Origin: Flavobacteriales bacterium
Lineage (GTDB): Bacteria; Bacteroidota; Bacteroidia; Flavobacteriales_D; CAJJDF01
Assembly (NCBI GenBank): GCA_020630395.1
Contig: JAHDBM010000011.1
Location: 1 to 64,000 of the forward strand
Direction of reading: 5' to 3'
Length of the DNA: 64,000 nt
Made by a program: the position numbers and the translations under genes. The notes beneath the pieces are model-generated. The model saw only the letters and a list, made by a program, of their open reading frames with translations, was not told where the DNA came from and did not search any database. This document shows positions 7,763 to 14,136 of the stretch, one piece after another (the first letter of the stretch is position 1; each line of letters opens with the position of its first letter).

Positions 7763-8749
7763 ATGGAAATTTGCTTTATTAGTTATGCTTGGGACAAAAT
7801 GGAACCTGATATTGACTCTACCTTATTATTAGCTCATGAATGTGCTAGCAGAGGTCATCAAGTGTATATGTTAACCTCAGATAATTTAACGATAAGAGAC
7901 TCTAAAACAATGGGGTTTTGTGAAAAACTAGATTTGAATTATCAAATATCAGAAGATCCCGAAATTTTCTTTGAAGAAGCTAAGTTTAGCTCTGAAACAA
8001 AAGTATTAGGAGACATGGATGTTATTTTTATGAGAGACGACCCACCATTAGACCCTATTGTATTAAACTTTTTAGATTCAATTGAAGATGATGTATTCTT
8101 AATTAACAGTATTGGAGGTCTAAGAGAAGCAAACAATAAAATTTACACTGCTTCTTATTACGATCCAGAAGGCGAATTTATTCCTGCTACTTATGTTTCT
8201 AAAAACAAAAATTATTTAAGACAAATAATTGAGGAACATGATGGAGATAAAATGATCATGAAGCCTTTAAATGGTTTTGGAGGAAAAGGTGTTATCGTAA
8301 TTGAAAAAAATGCCATGCAAAATGTTAACTCATTATTAGATTTTTACATTCATGGACAAGAAAGTAATAAAAGTAATTATGTAATCATTCAAGATTATGT
8401 TGAGGGTGCAGAAAAAGGAGATGTAAGGGTTATCATGCTACACGATCAACCACTTGGGGCTATTAGACGTGTTCCTGCAAAAGGTGAAGCTCGATCTAAT
8501 ATATCATCTGGAGGAACTGCAGAACATTATGTATTAAACGAAAAAGAAATTGAGCTTTGTAAACGAATTGGAGCTAAATTAGTGGAAGATGGCATCTATT
8601 TTTCTGGCTTAGATTTAATTGGAGGAAAATTAATAGAAGTAAATGTACTAAGCCCTGGAGGTCTGGTAGAAATAAATTGGAATTTAGAAACTCCTATACA
8701 ATCTCTTGTAGTTGACTATCTTGAAGAACGAGTTGCCGAAAAAAAATAA
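7763..8749 (+). CDS. Glutathione synthetase-like ATP-grasp ligase
   Basis: GshB-like motifs: MKPLNGFGGKGVIVI, GAIRRVPAKGEARSNISSGGTAE, FSGLDLIGGKLIEVNVLSPGG. Confidence 0.85.
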   Translation: MEICFISYAWDKMEPDIDSTLLLAHECASRGHQVYMLTSDNLTIRDSKTMGFCEKLDLNYQISEDPEIFFEEAKFSSETKVLGDMDVIFMRDDPPLDPIVLNFLDSIEDDVFLINSIGGLREANNKIYTASYYDPEGEFIPATYVSKNKNYLRQIIEEHDGDKMIMKPLNGFGGKGVIVIEKNAMQNVNSLLDFYIHGQESNKSNYVIIQDYVEGAEKGDVRVIMLHDQPLGAIRRVPAKGEARSNISSGGTAEHYVLNEKEIELCKRIGAKLVEDGIYFSGLDLIGGKLIEVNVLSPGGLVEINWNLETPIQSLVVDYLEERVAEKK

Positions 8750-8755
8750 TGGAAC

Positions 8756-10759
8756 ATGCCTAAATTAAGTATTGACGATATAATTAATAAAATCAAATTG
8801 GAAGAAACGTTTGAAGCTACTGCTTTAGATGGCTCTTTTGATATTAAGATAAATCGTTATGTCCCTTATGTATGTACGGCTATTCATGCAGGACATAATT
8901 TTAGGGATGAGCTTAAAACCAAATGTATTCATACCGAATTTGAAAGATGGTTTGAAGAAGACCCTTTTACAGATGACTTTATATCATCCTTACCCATAAC
9001 ACTTATTGGTAATGACTCTCGTTTTGAATATGATTTAAATAGATCACCTGAAAATTGCATTTATGATGAAGCTTGGGGGAAAAAAGTTTGGAAAAAACCA
9101 CTAACAAAAAGTGAAAAGGCCACATCACTTCAAAAACATAGCAATTATTATAAGGTTACTCATGCACTAATAACTAAACTAGAAGAAAAATTTAAAAGTT
9201 GTATTGTCTTTGATATGCATTCCTATAATTATAAAAGATGGGACAGGCCTGTTCCTGTTTTTAATATAGGTTGTGAAGCTGTTGACAGAGAAAAGTATGA
9301 TAAATACATCAATAAATTCAATACTGAATTAGATAACATTGATTTTAGAGGTATTGATAGTAAATCCGCAATAAATGATGTATTTCAAGGTAGGGGGAAT
9401 AATTTATTATACATAACAGAACACTTTAATAACACCCTTGTTCTTGCCACTGAAGTAAAAAAAATATACTGCAATGAACTAACTGGAGAACCGTATCCTG
9501 AAGAAATTAAATACCTTACTCGCCAATTAAAAAAAGCTATTCTTAACACAGCTTCGTTATTTGCTGAAGAACAAACCAATATTACAGTTACAAACAAAAG
9601 CAAACTACTTACTAAAGAAATTGATAAAAACTTAATTCAAGTAGATAAGCAACTGTATAAAATATTAAAATCATTTGAATTATTAAGTTTTGTAAATCCT
9701 ATTAATATAGACAGAGAAGAAAAAAGATTTTTCAAAAATAAAGAGACCGAAAATCCAAATTTTAAATATGCTCCCATCTTAATTGATTCATTTGAATTAA
9801 AAAAGGAATTATATAGTGTAGAAGTAAATAAAATAGAGGATGTCACTATTAGAAAAATGTACGAAGGTGTTATAAATGCTTTTGCACTTAAAACAGACAT
9901 GCTTTCTCAACTTGGAAAAGATCGTTTTTTATACAGCTCATTAGGTTATTTTGGACAACCTTCTAAAAAAGATATAAGAAATGCCAAATACTTATTAAGT
10001 CTTCCAAACATAAAATCAGATCAAAAAATTCATAAAAAACTAACTGTAGCTGATGCAAAAAAAGCATTTACTGATAGTTTTGAAAGCTACGGGTTTAATG
10101 GGAACATTGGCATGAATAAAGACATGGCTAGTGATGTAATGGTTATTAATAGCAAGAAAAAAGTATTAATTAAACATAATGCCGAATTTACTCCTAAGGA
10201 ATTAAACTATTTGGTTCATCATGAAATTGGTGTTCACATGGTTACTACCATGAACTCTATTGCTCAACCTCTTAAGATTTTTAATCTTGGATTGCCTATT
10301 AACACAAGAACTCAAGAAGGATTAGCTGTACTAGCTGAATATTTATCTGGTAATATTACACTAAAAAGACTACGCACCCTAGCGCTTAGGGTTATTGCTG
10401 TAGATATGATGGTTGGAGGTGCCGAATTTAAAGAGACTTTTTATTACCTGAGCAAAGAGTATAAAGAAGAAAAAAGCGAACTTTTTAACCTTGTAACTCG
10501 AGTTTATAGAGGAGGTGGATTCACTAAAGACTACCTATATCTTGCTGGATTTTGTGAAATGTATAAAAAGTGGAAATTGGGTTATGACTTAACCCCTTTA
10601 CTTATAGGAAAAACTTCTGATAAACATTATAATATTATTGCCGAGATGATGGATAGAGGTTTTTTAAATAAACCTCAATACATAACAGAATGTTTCGAAA
10701 ACCCTGTTCCAGAAAAAAATCATGAGATTTACGAATATATTGTTGACGGATTGATCTAA
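8756..10759 (+). CDS. Fusion: N-formylglutamate amidohydrolase-like domain plus DUF1704/MATCAP-like HExxxH peptidase ('flavohemoglobin expression-modulating QEGLA motif' family)
   Basis: N-terminal AIHAGHNFRDEL...FDMHSYNY; C-terminal HHEIGVHMVT (HExxxH) and TQEGLAVLAEY. Confidence 0.8.
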   Translation: MPKLSIDDIINKIKLEETFEATALDGSFDIKINRYVPYVCTAIHAGHNFRDELKTKCIHTEFERWFEEDPFTDDFISSLPITLIGNDSRFEYDLNRSPENCIYDEAWGKKVWKKPLTKSEKATSLQKHSNYYKVTHALITKLEEKFKSCIVFDMHSYNYKRWDRPVPVFNIGCEAVDREKYDKYINKFNTELDNIDFRGIDSKSAINDVFQGRGNNLLYITEHFNNTLVLATEVKKIYCNELTGEPYPEEIKYLTRQLKKAILNTASLFAEEQTNITVTNKSKLLTKEIDKNLIQVDKQLYKILKSFELLSFVNPINIDREEKRFFKNKETENPNFKYAPILIDSFELKKELYSVEVNKIEDVTIRKMYEGVINAFALKTDMLSQLGKDRFLYSSLGYFGQPSKKDIRNAKYLLSLPNIKSDQKIHKKLTVADAKKAFTDSFESYGFNGNIGMNKDMASDVMVINSKKKVLIKHNAEFTPKELNYLVHHEIGVHMVTTMNSIAQPLKIFNLGLPINTRTQEGLAVLAEYLSGNITLKRLRTLALRVIAVDMMVGGAEFKETFYYLSKEYKEEKSELFNLVTRVYRGGGFTKDYLYLAGFCEMYKKWKLGYDLTPLLIGKTSDKHYNIIAEMMDRGFLNKPQYITECFENPVPEKNHEIYEYIVDGLI

Positions 10760-10795
10760 TAAGTTTAGTAACTTTAACTAACCTTTATTCATTAC

Positions 10796-12346
10796 ATGAA
10801 AGATTCAATATCATTTAAAGACATCAATTTTTTACCACCCATTATTGAGGAGTATTTAAAAAAAGAGAACTCTTTACATGAATTATATAAATATCCTTCA
10901 TCACTTTCATTGATTGAACATGTTATTAAAAACAAAAAACCTGTTGACAGAATAAAACTTGTACATGAATTAAGCAAGCAAAATGCTAGAGCAACTAATG
11001 AAACTAAAGCAAACATATCTCTATTAGCCGATAACAATACGTTTTCTGTGACTACTGGTCATCAGCTATGTTTATTTACTGGCCCACTATATTTTATTTA
11101 CAAAATATTAAGTACAGTTAAACTATGTATGGAGCTTAAATCTGCTTACCCAACTTATAATTTTGTTCCTGTATATTGGATGGCTACCGAAGATCATGAT
11201 GTTGAAGAAATAAATCACTTCTATTTATTTAATAAAAAAATCACATGGGAATCTAAACAAAAAGGTTCAGTTGGTAGGTTTACATTAACTGAATTACAAC
11301 CTGTTTTTGATCTATTAAGAAGTCAGTTTAGAGAAGAAAACATAGTGATAGAGAATATGATTTCTTGTTATGAAGATGCTCCTAATTTAGCTGAAGCAAC
11401 TCGTAATCTTGTCGATTATCTTTTTGGTAAATACGGAGTAGTAACAATAGATGGGGATAATACAACTTTTAAACATCTCTTTTCTCCTATTATAAAAGAT
11501 GAATTGATTAATCAATCATGCGAGCGACTAATTTCAAGAACAAACGAAAAGCTAAGTTTGCTAGGCTACAAAACTCAAGTAAACCCTAGAGAACTAAATT
11601 TATTCTATTTAAAAGATAATAGCAGAGAACGTATTGTACTAAAAGACAACACTTATCATGTTTTAAACACCTCCATTTCTTTTTCAAAAGAAGCAATATT
11701 AAATGAGCTAGAACAATTTTCCGAAAGATTTAGTCCAAACGTAGCATTAAGACCTGTTTATCAAGAATTACTTTTACCAAATGTTGCTACTATTGGTGGT
11801 CCAGGAGAAACAGCTTATTGGCTACAATTAAAATCTACTTTTGAATATCATAACGTCTCTTACCCAATGTTAATATTAAGAAATAGTGCTTTGGTTATTA
11901 GAAAATCTATTCTAAAAAAAATTGACAAACTTGAACTCAATGAGCATGACTTATTCTTAAAGACGAATGAACTAGTTAACAAGGTAATTAAAGAGCGTAA
12001 TCCTATATCTTTCGAGGAAGAAATTAGTGCACTTGAATCCATCTTTTCATTAGCTAAAGAAAAAGCAACAACTGTCGATTTTTCGCTTGAAAAAACCGTA
12101 ATAGGTGAACTAAAGAAAGCTCAAAATTCAATTAATTTAATTCAAAGTAAAACGCTTAAAGCTGAGAAAAGAAACAATGAAACGTTAGTTAATCAGCTTA
12201 CAAGCATCAAAGAGAATCTATTCCCAAATGGAGGTATTCAAGAAAGAACGGATAACATATTAAACTTTTATACTGATGATTTATTTGACAAACTTTTAAA
12301 TCAATTTAACACCTTTGAGGATAACTTATATCTTATAAAACAATAA
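10796..12346 (+). CDS. bshC: Putative cysteine ligase BshC (bacillithiol biosynthesis)
   Basis: TTGHQLCLFTGPLYFIYKI, FVPVYWMATEDHDVEEINHFYLF, TIGGPGETAYWLQLKSTFE. Confidence 0.93.
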   Translation: MKDSISFKDINFLPPIIEEYLKKENSLHELYKYPSSLSLIEHVIKNKKPVDRIKLVHELSKQNARATNETKANISLLADNNTFSVTTGHQLCLFTGPLYFIYKILSTVKLCMELKSAYPTYNFVPVYWMATEDHDVEEINHFYLFNKKITWESKQKGSVGRFTLTELQPVFDLLRSQFREENIVIENMISCYEDAPNLAEATRNLVDYLFGKYGVVTIDGDNTTFKHLFSPIIKDELINQSCERLISRTNEKLSLLGYKTQVNPRELNLFYLKDNSRERIVLKDNTYHVLNTSISFSKEAILNELEQFSERFSPNVALRPVYQELLLPNVATIGGPGETAYWLQLKSTFEYHNVSYPMLILRNSALVIRKSILKKIDKLELNEHDLFLKTNELVNKVIKERNPISFEEEISALESIFSLAKEKATTVDFSLEKTVIGELKKAQNSINLIQSKTLKAEKRNNETLVNQLTSIKENLFPNGGIQERTDNILNFYTDDLFDKLLNQFNTFEDNLYLIKQ

Positions 12347-12352
12347 ATATTC

Positions 12353-12874
12353 ATGAATATTGATAAAAAAATAGCTCAAATGGAAGAAATGAAAAACAAT
12401 ATGATTTCTTCTATAAAAGACTACTCATACCAACAACTTAATCAACAACCAAATGAAAAAGAATGGTCAATAGTTCAAGTTATTTCTCATCTTTTAGATG
12501 CCGAAATTGGCATTGAATATTATATTGATAAGCGTGTAGCAAAAATAAATACACTAAAAAAAACTGGTTTAAAAAATCTTGCTAATAGTAAACTCCTAAA
12601 CACTGTCTTTAAATCTAAGCGAAAATTTAAAGCTCCAAAAGCTGTTTCTAATCCAGCTAACAATAGATCTTTTGAAGAATTATCTAGCGAATGGGATAAC
12701 AGCAGAATTAAACTTATACAAACATTAAAATCAATTCCTCAAAAGCATTATAATAAAGCTATTTGGAAACATCCTTATGCTGGAGAATTAAATACAGCTC
12801 AAGTTATTGATTTTTTCACTAACCATATTCTACATCATCAACATCAAATAAAAAGGATAAAAAAGTCTTTATAA
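12353..12874 (+). CDS. DinB/YfiT-like protein
   Basis: Four-helix DinB pattern with EWSIVQVISHLLDAE and NHILHHQHQIKRI candidate metal histidines. Confidence 0.8.
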   Translation: MNIDKKIAQMEEMKNNMISSIKDYSYQQLNQQPNEKEWSIVQVISHLLDAEIGIEYYIDKRVAKINTLKKTGLKNLANSKLLNTVFKSKRKFKAPKAVSNPANNRSFEELSSEWDNSRIKLIQTLKSIPQKHYNKAIWKHPYAGELNTAQVIDFFTNHILHHQHQIKRIKKSL

Positions 12875-12875
12875 T

Positions 12876-13499
12876 TTATCTTCTTCTAAAACTGTATATA
12901 TCATAAGCAATTCTAACGTTTGGAAAAAAATAAGATAATTTATCTCCACTTATCGTTTTCACTCTATCAATCCTTGCAAATATTCCAAAAGATATAGTTC
13001 CACCATTACAAACGTAATCAACACCAAAAGCATAGGATTGAGATGATTTTAAAACATTTCTTTCTAAAACCTGCGAAGTACTTAAAAACCTTGGCATCCT
13101 AAAATGATGATTAAATAAAAAACTACACCTCCATAACTCAATAATTCTTTTTTTAATTTGAACTGAATAACCTATTCCATGAAAAAAAGTTGAATCATTT
13201 TTATCTAAACTCCCTAAAAAGAGTTGAAAAGAAGGATTTAAACTTATAAAAGATGACGAATATTTATCAGTCTCAAAAAAATATGTAGGTCCAAAACCAC
13301 CTCCTTCATACCCTATCCACCAATTAGATCTACTATGGAACAACAAAGGTGAGCTAACATTATGCAATCCCCAACCATGAGTTTTAGTAGAATCAAAAAC
13401 AGGAATATCTTCTGGAGCTTCTTTTACAACCTTAATACTGCCTCTTTGAGAAAAAGAAGTAAACGATAGTAAACAAATTGATAATAATAGTAATCTCAT
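12876..13499 (-). CDS. Hypothetical exported protein with GxIKVxKE motif (start trimmed to MRLLLLSICLL)
   Basis: Signal peptide MRLLLLSICLLSFTSFSQ followed by RGSIKVVKE. Confidence 0.65.
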   Translation of the reverse strand: MRLLLLSICLLSFTSFSQRGSIKVVKEAPEDIPVFDSTKTHGWGLHNVSSPLLFHSRSNWWIGYEGGGFGPTYFFETDKYSSSFISLNPSFQLFLGSLDKNDSTFFHGIGYSVQIKKRIIELWRCSFLFNHHFRMPRFLSTSQVLERNVLKSSQSYAFGVDYVCNGGTISFGIFARIDRVKTISGDKLSYFFPNVRIAYDIYSFRRR

Positions 13500-13500
13500 A

Positions 13501-14136
13501 TTAAAATCTTCTAATTGCCGGTTTACACAATATTCTATTGCTCCAATCAAATGGTATATACAACACCTTAAATTGAATAAACCTTATTGGATCAATTTGA
13601 ATATTATTATCCATAATCCCTCCATGAAATTCCAAATCGATTGATTTAACTAATTTATAAGCTAATCCCAAACTAAATTGTTTAGCATCATATACTCCAT
13701 TTAAACCAAATTGCTGATTAATTTCTAAAACTGGTTTCAGTCTTCTCAAAAAGATTAGTTTATCGTGAGAAATATGAATATTATATCCTAAGGTTAATTC
13801 AGTAATATTATCGGGGGCAACATATCGAGCCATATTAGCCCCAATCCTGTACATAAATTGATTTAAATATCCTGCTACACCAACATCTAATGAGGTATTA
13901 TTATCAATACTAAACTCCGAATTAAGTTGATGCTTCAAATTTACACCCACATACAATGAAACACGTTTACATTTACTATTTCCCTGAAAGTATCTACATT
14001 GAAATCGAATAGGATCTCGGTATATAGTTTGATTAACCTCAGCTTTTGGCTCTTTTTTTACTTTGATAGTACCTTTTTGTCCTACGACAGAAAATGAACA
14101 TACTAAGGTTATGTAAATTAATAAACAATATTTCAT
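13501..14136 (-). CDS. Hypothetical exported protein with GxIKVxKE motif
   Basis: Signal peptide then QKGTIKVKKEPKAEV; beta-rich remainder. Confidence 0.65.
   Translation of the reverse strand: MKYCLLIYITLVCSFSVVGQKGTIKVKKEPKAEVNQTIYRDPIRFQCRYFQGNSKCKRVSLYVGVNLKHQLNSEFSIDNNTSLDVGVAGYLNQFMYRIGANMARYVAPDNITELTLGYNIHISHDKLIFLRRLKPVLEINQQFGLNGVYDAKQFSLGLAYKLVKSIDLEFHGGIMDNNIQIDPIRFIQFKVLYIPFDWSNRILCKPAIRRF

Follow-up and report, generated by a model that had tools for sequence, protein, structure and literature searches.

Four closely spaced genes on one strand raise the question of whether they form a single biochemical system or the meeting point of two. They lie in a stretch of 64,000 nucleotides from the Flavobacteriales contig JAHDBM010000011.1, the whole of which we call the window, and an earlier note had interpreted them as a single four-part system with BshC as the source of the thiol. 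The reading that we prefer, and hold to be reasonably probable, is that two modules have become joined in this lineage in particular; module A would ligate and release an amide independently of module B, which would make and transfer bacillithiol. The features concerned are the following.

7763..8749, + strand: GshB-like ATP-grasp ligase (PRK12458-like), module A; 328 aa; PF02951 and PF02955
8756..10759, + strand: fused FGase-MATCAP metallo-hydrolase (predicted), module A; 667 aa; PF05013 and PF08014
8756..9580, + strand: FGase (N-formylglutamate amidohydrolase-like) domain, about aa 1-275 of the fused protein
9722..10705, + strand: MATCAP (DUF1704/QEGLA) metallopeptidase domain with HEIGVH and QEG motifs
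10796..12346, + strand: bshC, module B; 516 aa; above the TIGR03998 equivalog cut-off
12353..12874, + strand: DinB/YfiT-superfamily (S-transferase-like) protein, module B; 173 aa; PF12867

An open reading frame and profile check returned the positions, strand, families and spacing of the four genes as first described, with Pfam and NCBIfam assigning, in order, GSH-S_N and GSH-S_ATP, FGase and MATCAP, BshC, and DinB_2, MATCAP being the present Pfam name for DUF1704. The four ORFs are separated by 6, 36 and 6 nt, and a convergent ORF, ending at 12876, lies 1 nt from the fourth. A scan of the gaps found no terminator-like site, which makes co-transcription plausible; a promoter scan of the row gave fewer sites than in shuffled sequences. 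In the congener L033 the end of the FGase-MATCAP gene and the beginning of bshC share 4 nt, suggesting one transcript there, and the row in the window is probably transcribed as one unit. Two overlapping minus-strand ORFs downstream of the row (12876-13550 and 13501-14136) have no Pfam match. None of the four proteins matched a PADLOC model, and an anti-phage defense reading was rejected on that ground.

A single four-gene system was rejected because BshC is near-universal, MATCAP is sparse, the row is confined to one genus and the sister genus lacks module A. Among 199 genomes drawn across Bacteroidota, BshC was found in 197 and MATCAP in 12. Of the other eleven genomes with MATCAP, ten had a BshC position listed, and in 10/10 it lay elsewhere; across these ten genomes, the shortest BshC-MATCAP distance on one contig outside the genus was 32 kb (G088). 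We also compared 125 stretches around MATCAP (80 named GTDB loci, which are the best 80 of at least 584 hits, together with relatives from the order and further loci, a small number of genomes being represented twice). BshC or DinB stood beside MATCAP only in the window and in L033, and the four-gene row was found in none of the 123 other stretches (2/125, both of one genus). Such rarity among relatives counts against the four-part system of the earlier note. Among five genomes of a sister genus within the family, all of which lack MATCAP and the ligase, bshC is followed by dinB in 5/5, and an unrelated 114-aa gene lies upstream of bshC in 4/5, the fifth being cut by a contig end; bshC-dinB is thus a family-level pair that module A joined in one genus. 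Module A stands next to module B in both sampled species of the genus, whose proteins are 50–75% identical, and the arrangement may be non-neutral; its persistence rests on two species because only one congener was sampled.

The same data bear on a four-gene thiol-conjugate pathway, in which BshC would give bacillithiol, the ligase would attach an amino acid to bacillithiol itself or to an adduct, the residue would be taken off again by FGase/MATCAP, and DinB would act as the transferase. The single strand and tight gaps fit such a pathway, as do the order kept in the congener with its 4-nt overlap and the genes resembling sulfurtransferases and thiol oxidoreductases that lie close to module A in other genomes, but the modules are never joined beyond the genus, module A also occurs in Proteobacteria and the sister genus carries bshC-dinB on its own, and we judge this pathway highly improbable. 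A mercaptopyruvate-sulfurtransferase-like two-domain rhodanese lies between ligase and FGase in 27 loci (for example L025:11316-12137 and L028:6770-7609), and with this gene inside the cassette, module A may have a sulfur connection. In L028 (7612-7938) and 14 other loci, an acidic conserved protein of about 108 aa without a Pfam match precedes FGase.

Module B fits the metabolism of bacillithiol, a protective thiol. BshC, the enzyme that adds cysteine in its synthesis, scored 414 bits against TIGR03998 (cut-off 266), and profile searches of the host genome returned a bshA candidate (529.5 bits) and one PIG-L/BshB-type gene elsewhere, which places the genome among those with bacillithiol synthesis genes. 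Of the companion genes named in the earlier note, bshA and bshB thus have candidates, whereas gshA has none in the two families searched: the host genome, which is 98.75% complete, has no PF04107 or PF04262 match for a gamma-glutamylcysteine ligase (GshF-type enzymes lay outside this search). The DinB-fold protein retains H46, H158 and H162, invariant in a family alignment of six sequences, and the metal-site histidines of BstA are H67/H160/H164 (PMC5815605). It differs from known bacillithiol transferases in scoring far under the YfiT equivalog model (26.7 bits, cut-off 160), although the DinB/YfiT superfamily is too divergent for a low score to exclude transferase function. Its pairing with bshC in the sister genus and its retained three-histidine site uphold the earlier suggestion of a candidate bacillithiol transferase. 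Module B would make bacillithiol and probably transfer it to electrophiles. A general bshC-dinB pairing across Bacteroidota was rejected: dinB was seen next to bshC in none of 47 readable stretches outside the family, and none of ten neighbors checked against Pfam was DinB.

What, then, does the ligase of module A make? Its AlphaFold model (pLDDT 87.7) has E. coli GshB (1gsa) as its top PDB match, with TM 0.86/0.89, RimK coming next, and alignment and structure match place the GshB fold and ATP-site residues in the window protein. The likeness to 1gsa covers the full-length fold, the ATP/Mg residues and an Arg-rich flexible loop; in the alignment, the E. coli GshB row agrees with the 1gsa alignment from residue 19 on. 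By score, the window ligase falls outside GshB, under all three GshB-type cut-offs (PRK12458, 368.6 bits against 408; PRK05246, 263 against 272; TIGR01380, 224 against 299), and it further differs from GshB in a shorter N-terminal segment, in traveling with hydrolases and in a genome without a GshA of either family. Some cassette ligases do exceed an NCBIfam GshB cut-off (Photobacterium, 291.7 against 272), which is how the cassette ligases come by their database name, glutathione synthase. An ordinary glutathione synthase, working in a cassette that makes and degrades glutathione, would agree with these passing scores, the top structural match and the conserved ATP site and loop. The missing PF04107 and PF04262 matches (GshF-type outside the search), the full bacillithiol gene set present instead and the three scores under cut-off led us to disfavor this explanation, which we consider very unlikely. 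Since bshA, bshB and bshC are present, the two GshA families are unmatched and the ligase lies under the GshB cut-offs, module A is probably neither a glutathione nor a bacillithiol pathway.

The partner of the ligase, the fused protein, is assigned to MATCAP by profile, motif and fold. Its MATCAP profile score is 321 bits against a cut-off of 27, the TIGR02421 cut-off is also exceeded, and its model (pLDDT 91.8) has human MATCAP 7z5g (TM by target 0.69) and NFGA 2q7s (0.72) as best solved matches. It carries HEIGVH (H489, E490, H494) and QEG at 520-522, which agree with the HExxxH plus EG definition used for human TMCP1 (PMC10499314), so that motifs and fold are common to human and window MATCAP. 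The FGase domain belongs to its family by profile, fold and conserved active-site residues (H44, G46, E67/E68/D69, D93/N95/R96, D153 and H155 are invariant), and an alignment of 34 fused homologs left HExxxH and QEG in MATCAP, and H44, D153 and H155 in FGase, unchanged. From these motifs and models, the fused protein is probably a metallo-hydrolase whose two domains are both of zinc type; the MATCAP domain may remove C-terminal residues from a protein and the FGase domain may hydrolyze N-formylglutamate. Six long MATCAP proteins of 609–643 aa (L025, L026, L027, L029, L030 and L031) adjoin a second ligase type; their N-terminal domain matches FGase (hhalign 97%, E 3.6e-11) without the metal-site motifs, a degenerate FGase with an intact separate FGase alongside.

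Ligase and hydrolase go together far beyond the window. Among 199 genomes of the order, with a ligase ortholog threshold of E at most 1e-30, the ligase was found in 34 and MATCAP in 36, with both in 32, giving a Fisher exact p = 3e-30 that is inflated by relatedness because genomes were counted as independent. The two ligase-only genomes comprise one with the locus at a contig end and one that is 57% complete, and the four MATCAP-only genomes two at contig ends, one with an internal stop and one of a lone type. An ATP-grasp gene adjoins MATCAP in 109 of the 125 stretches, and FGase is fused in 42 and adjacent in 70 (112/125), which bears out the linkage of a GshB-type ligase with an opposing NFGA/DUF1704 hydrolase that had been put forward from the window. 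Families, folds, catalytic motifs, co-occurrence, co-location and the one-genus row are all computed directly, and the ligase-hydrolase core pair is real and uncharacterized. A few loci in Arenibacter, Galbibacter and Robiginitalea have MATCAP without a neighboring ligase or FGase.

Module A recurs across Bacteroidota and also in Photobacterium and rhizobia. Two Photobacterium replicons have the ligase followed by a fused FGase-MATCAP, with the order and fusion of the window. On rhizobial plasmids, genes annotated as N-formylglutamate amidohydrolase, QEGLA protein and glutathione synthetase follow one another; these PRK12458, QEGLA (TIGR02421) and NFGA trios bring together the same three families, but in the order FGase-MATCAP-ligase and with FGase unfused, whereas in the window the ligase comes first and FGase is fused to MATCAP. 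The bacterial proteins related to human tubulin detyrosinase, with no function assigned, thus accompany an amidohydrolase and an ATP-grasp ligase of one particular type, and what is listed as a "QEGLA motif protein of unknown function" becomes part of a testable ligase-hydrolase pair. No paper in the literature searched, which excluded the 2009 amidoligase survey of Iyer et al. in Mol BioSyst, takes up DUF1704 or KIAA0895L jointly with ATP-grasp; the association may have been predicted before.

From families and neighborhoods we infer the chemistry of module A, its opposite directions, its substrate and its role in metabolite or tail modification. The ATP-grasp enzyme would activate a carboxylate with ATP and couple it to an amine, so that an amino acid, a small peptide or the tail of a protein acquires an amide; working from the carboxyl side, the FGase and MATCAP domains would cut an amide in that same pool of substrates. 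Ligation and cutting together would make a ligate-and-release or turnover cycle, as TTL and MATCAP do on tubulin, though the substrate of the ligase may not be that of the hydrolases. Like module A, the tubulin tyrosination cycle sets an ATP-grasp ligase, TTL, against a MATCAP-family metallo-carboxypeptidase (MATCAP/KIAA0895L), but module A has no tubulin, its ligase is GshB-like rather than TTL-like, and it has an extra fused FGase domain and genes in an operon. The LysX/ArgX-LysW-LysK system, an amino-acid carrier system in which LysK provides the carboxypeptidase-type release step, likewise combines ATP-grasp ligation with release, and ArgX (3vpb) is among the fold matches of the ligase; it differs in that no LysW-like carrier gene was recognized in the cassette and that the cassette hydrolases come from other families.

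Argued from the tubulin analogy, module A could be a bacterial cycle at the C-terminus of a peptide or protein tail reserved for it, with the GshB-like ligase putting a residue on and the relative of MATCAP taking it off, a specific proposal that we regard as doubtful. Since the fold closest to that of the ligase belongs to a genuine synthetase of small peptides, it lends protein tagging no direct support. If true, the C-terminal cycle of module A would be a prokaryotic counterpart of tubulin tyrosination, and the eukaryotic remover would descend from the same peptidase family as the module A MATCAP. In Vibrionaceae, a DUF413/MaoP-like gene lies directly upstream of the cassette (L246:6539-6898, L249:5465-5869 and L250:4408-4875), and its product, with a strongly acidic C-terminal tail, is a possible candidate for a tail substrate there.

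Expression data bring in another explanation, that module A serves scavenging or osmolyte turnover only, FGase and MATCAP degrading an N-acyl amino acid or a peptide whose pieces the ligase would re-use. RNA-seq of Photobacterium damselae at 1% versus 3% NaCl showed a "GshB" gene, A0J47_RS17020, up 38.4-fold and the next-numbered QEGLA gene, A0J47_RS17025, up 27.5-fold (PMC10308900). Because two other Photobacterium carry the ligase followed by FGase-MATCAP, the P. damselae pair, known here from the published table by gene names, is very probably module A under a glutathione name. Public databases label cassette ligases as glutathione synthase, so that expression results in print may have been taken for glutathione biology. 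Induction at low salt, which would suit turnover of an osmolyte, names no substrate, and a purely scavenging or osmolyte role seems to us somewhat unlikely. The glutamate/dicarboxylate symporter that adjoins the cassette in 54 flavobacterial loci (for example L022:11147-12472) would also suit that role, but its position may be synteny inherited with chorismate synthase, which stands next to the symporter in many cassette loci.
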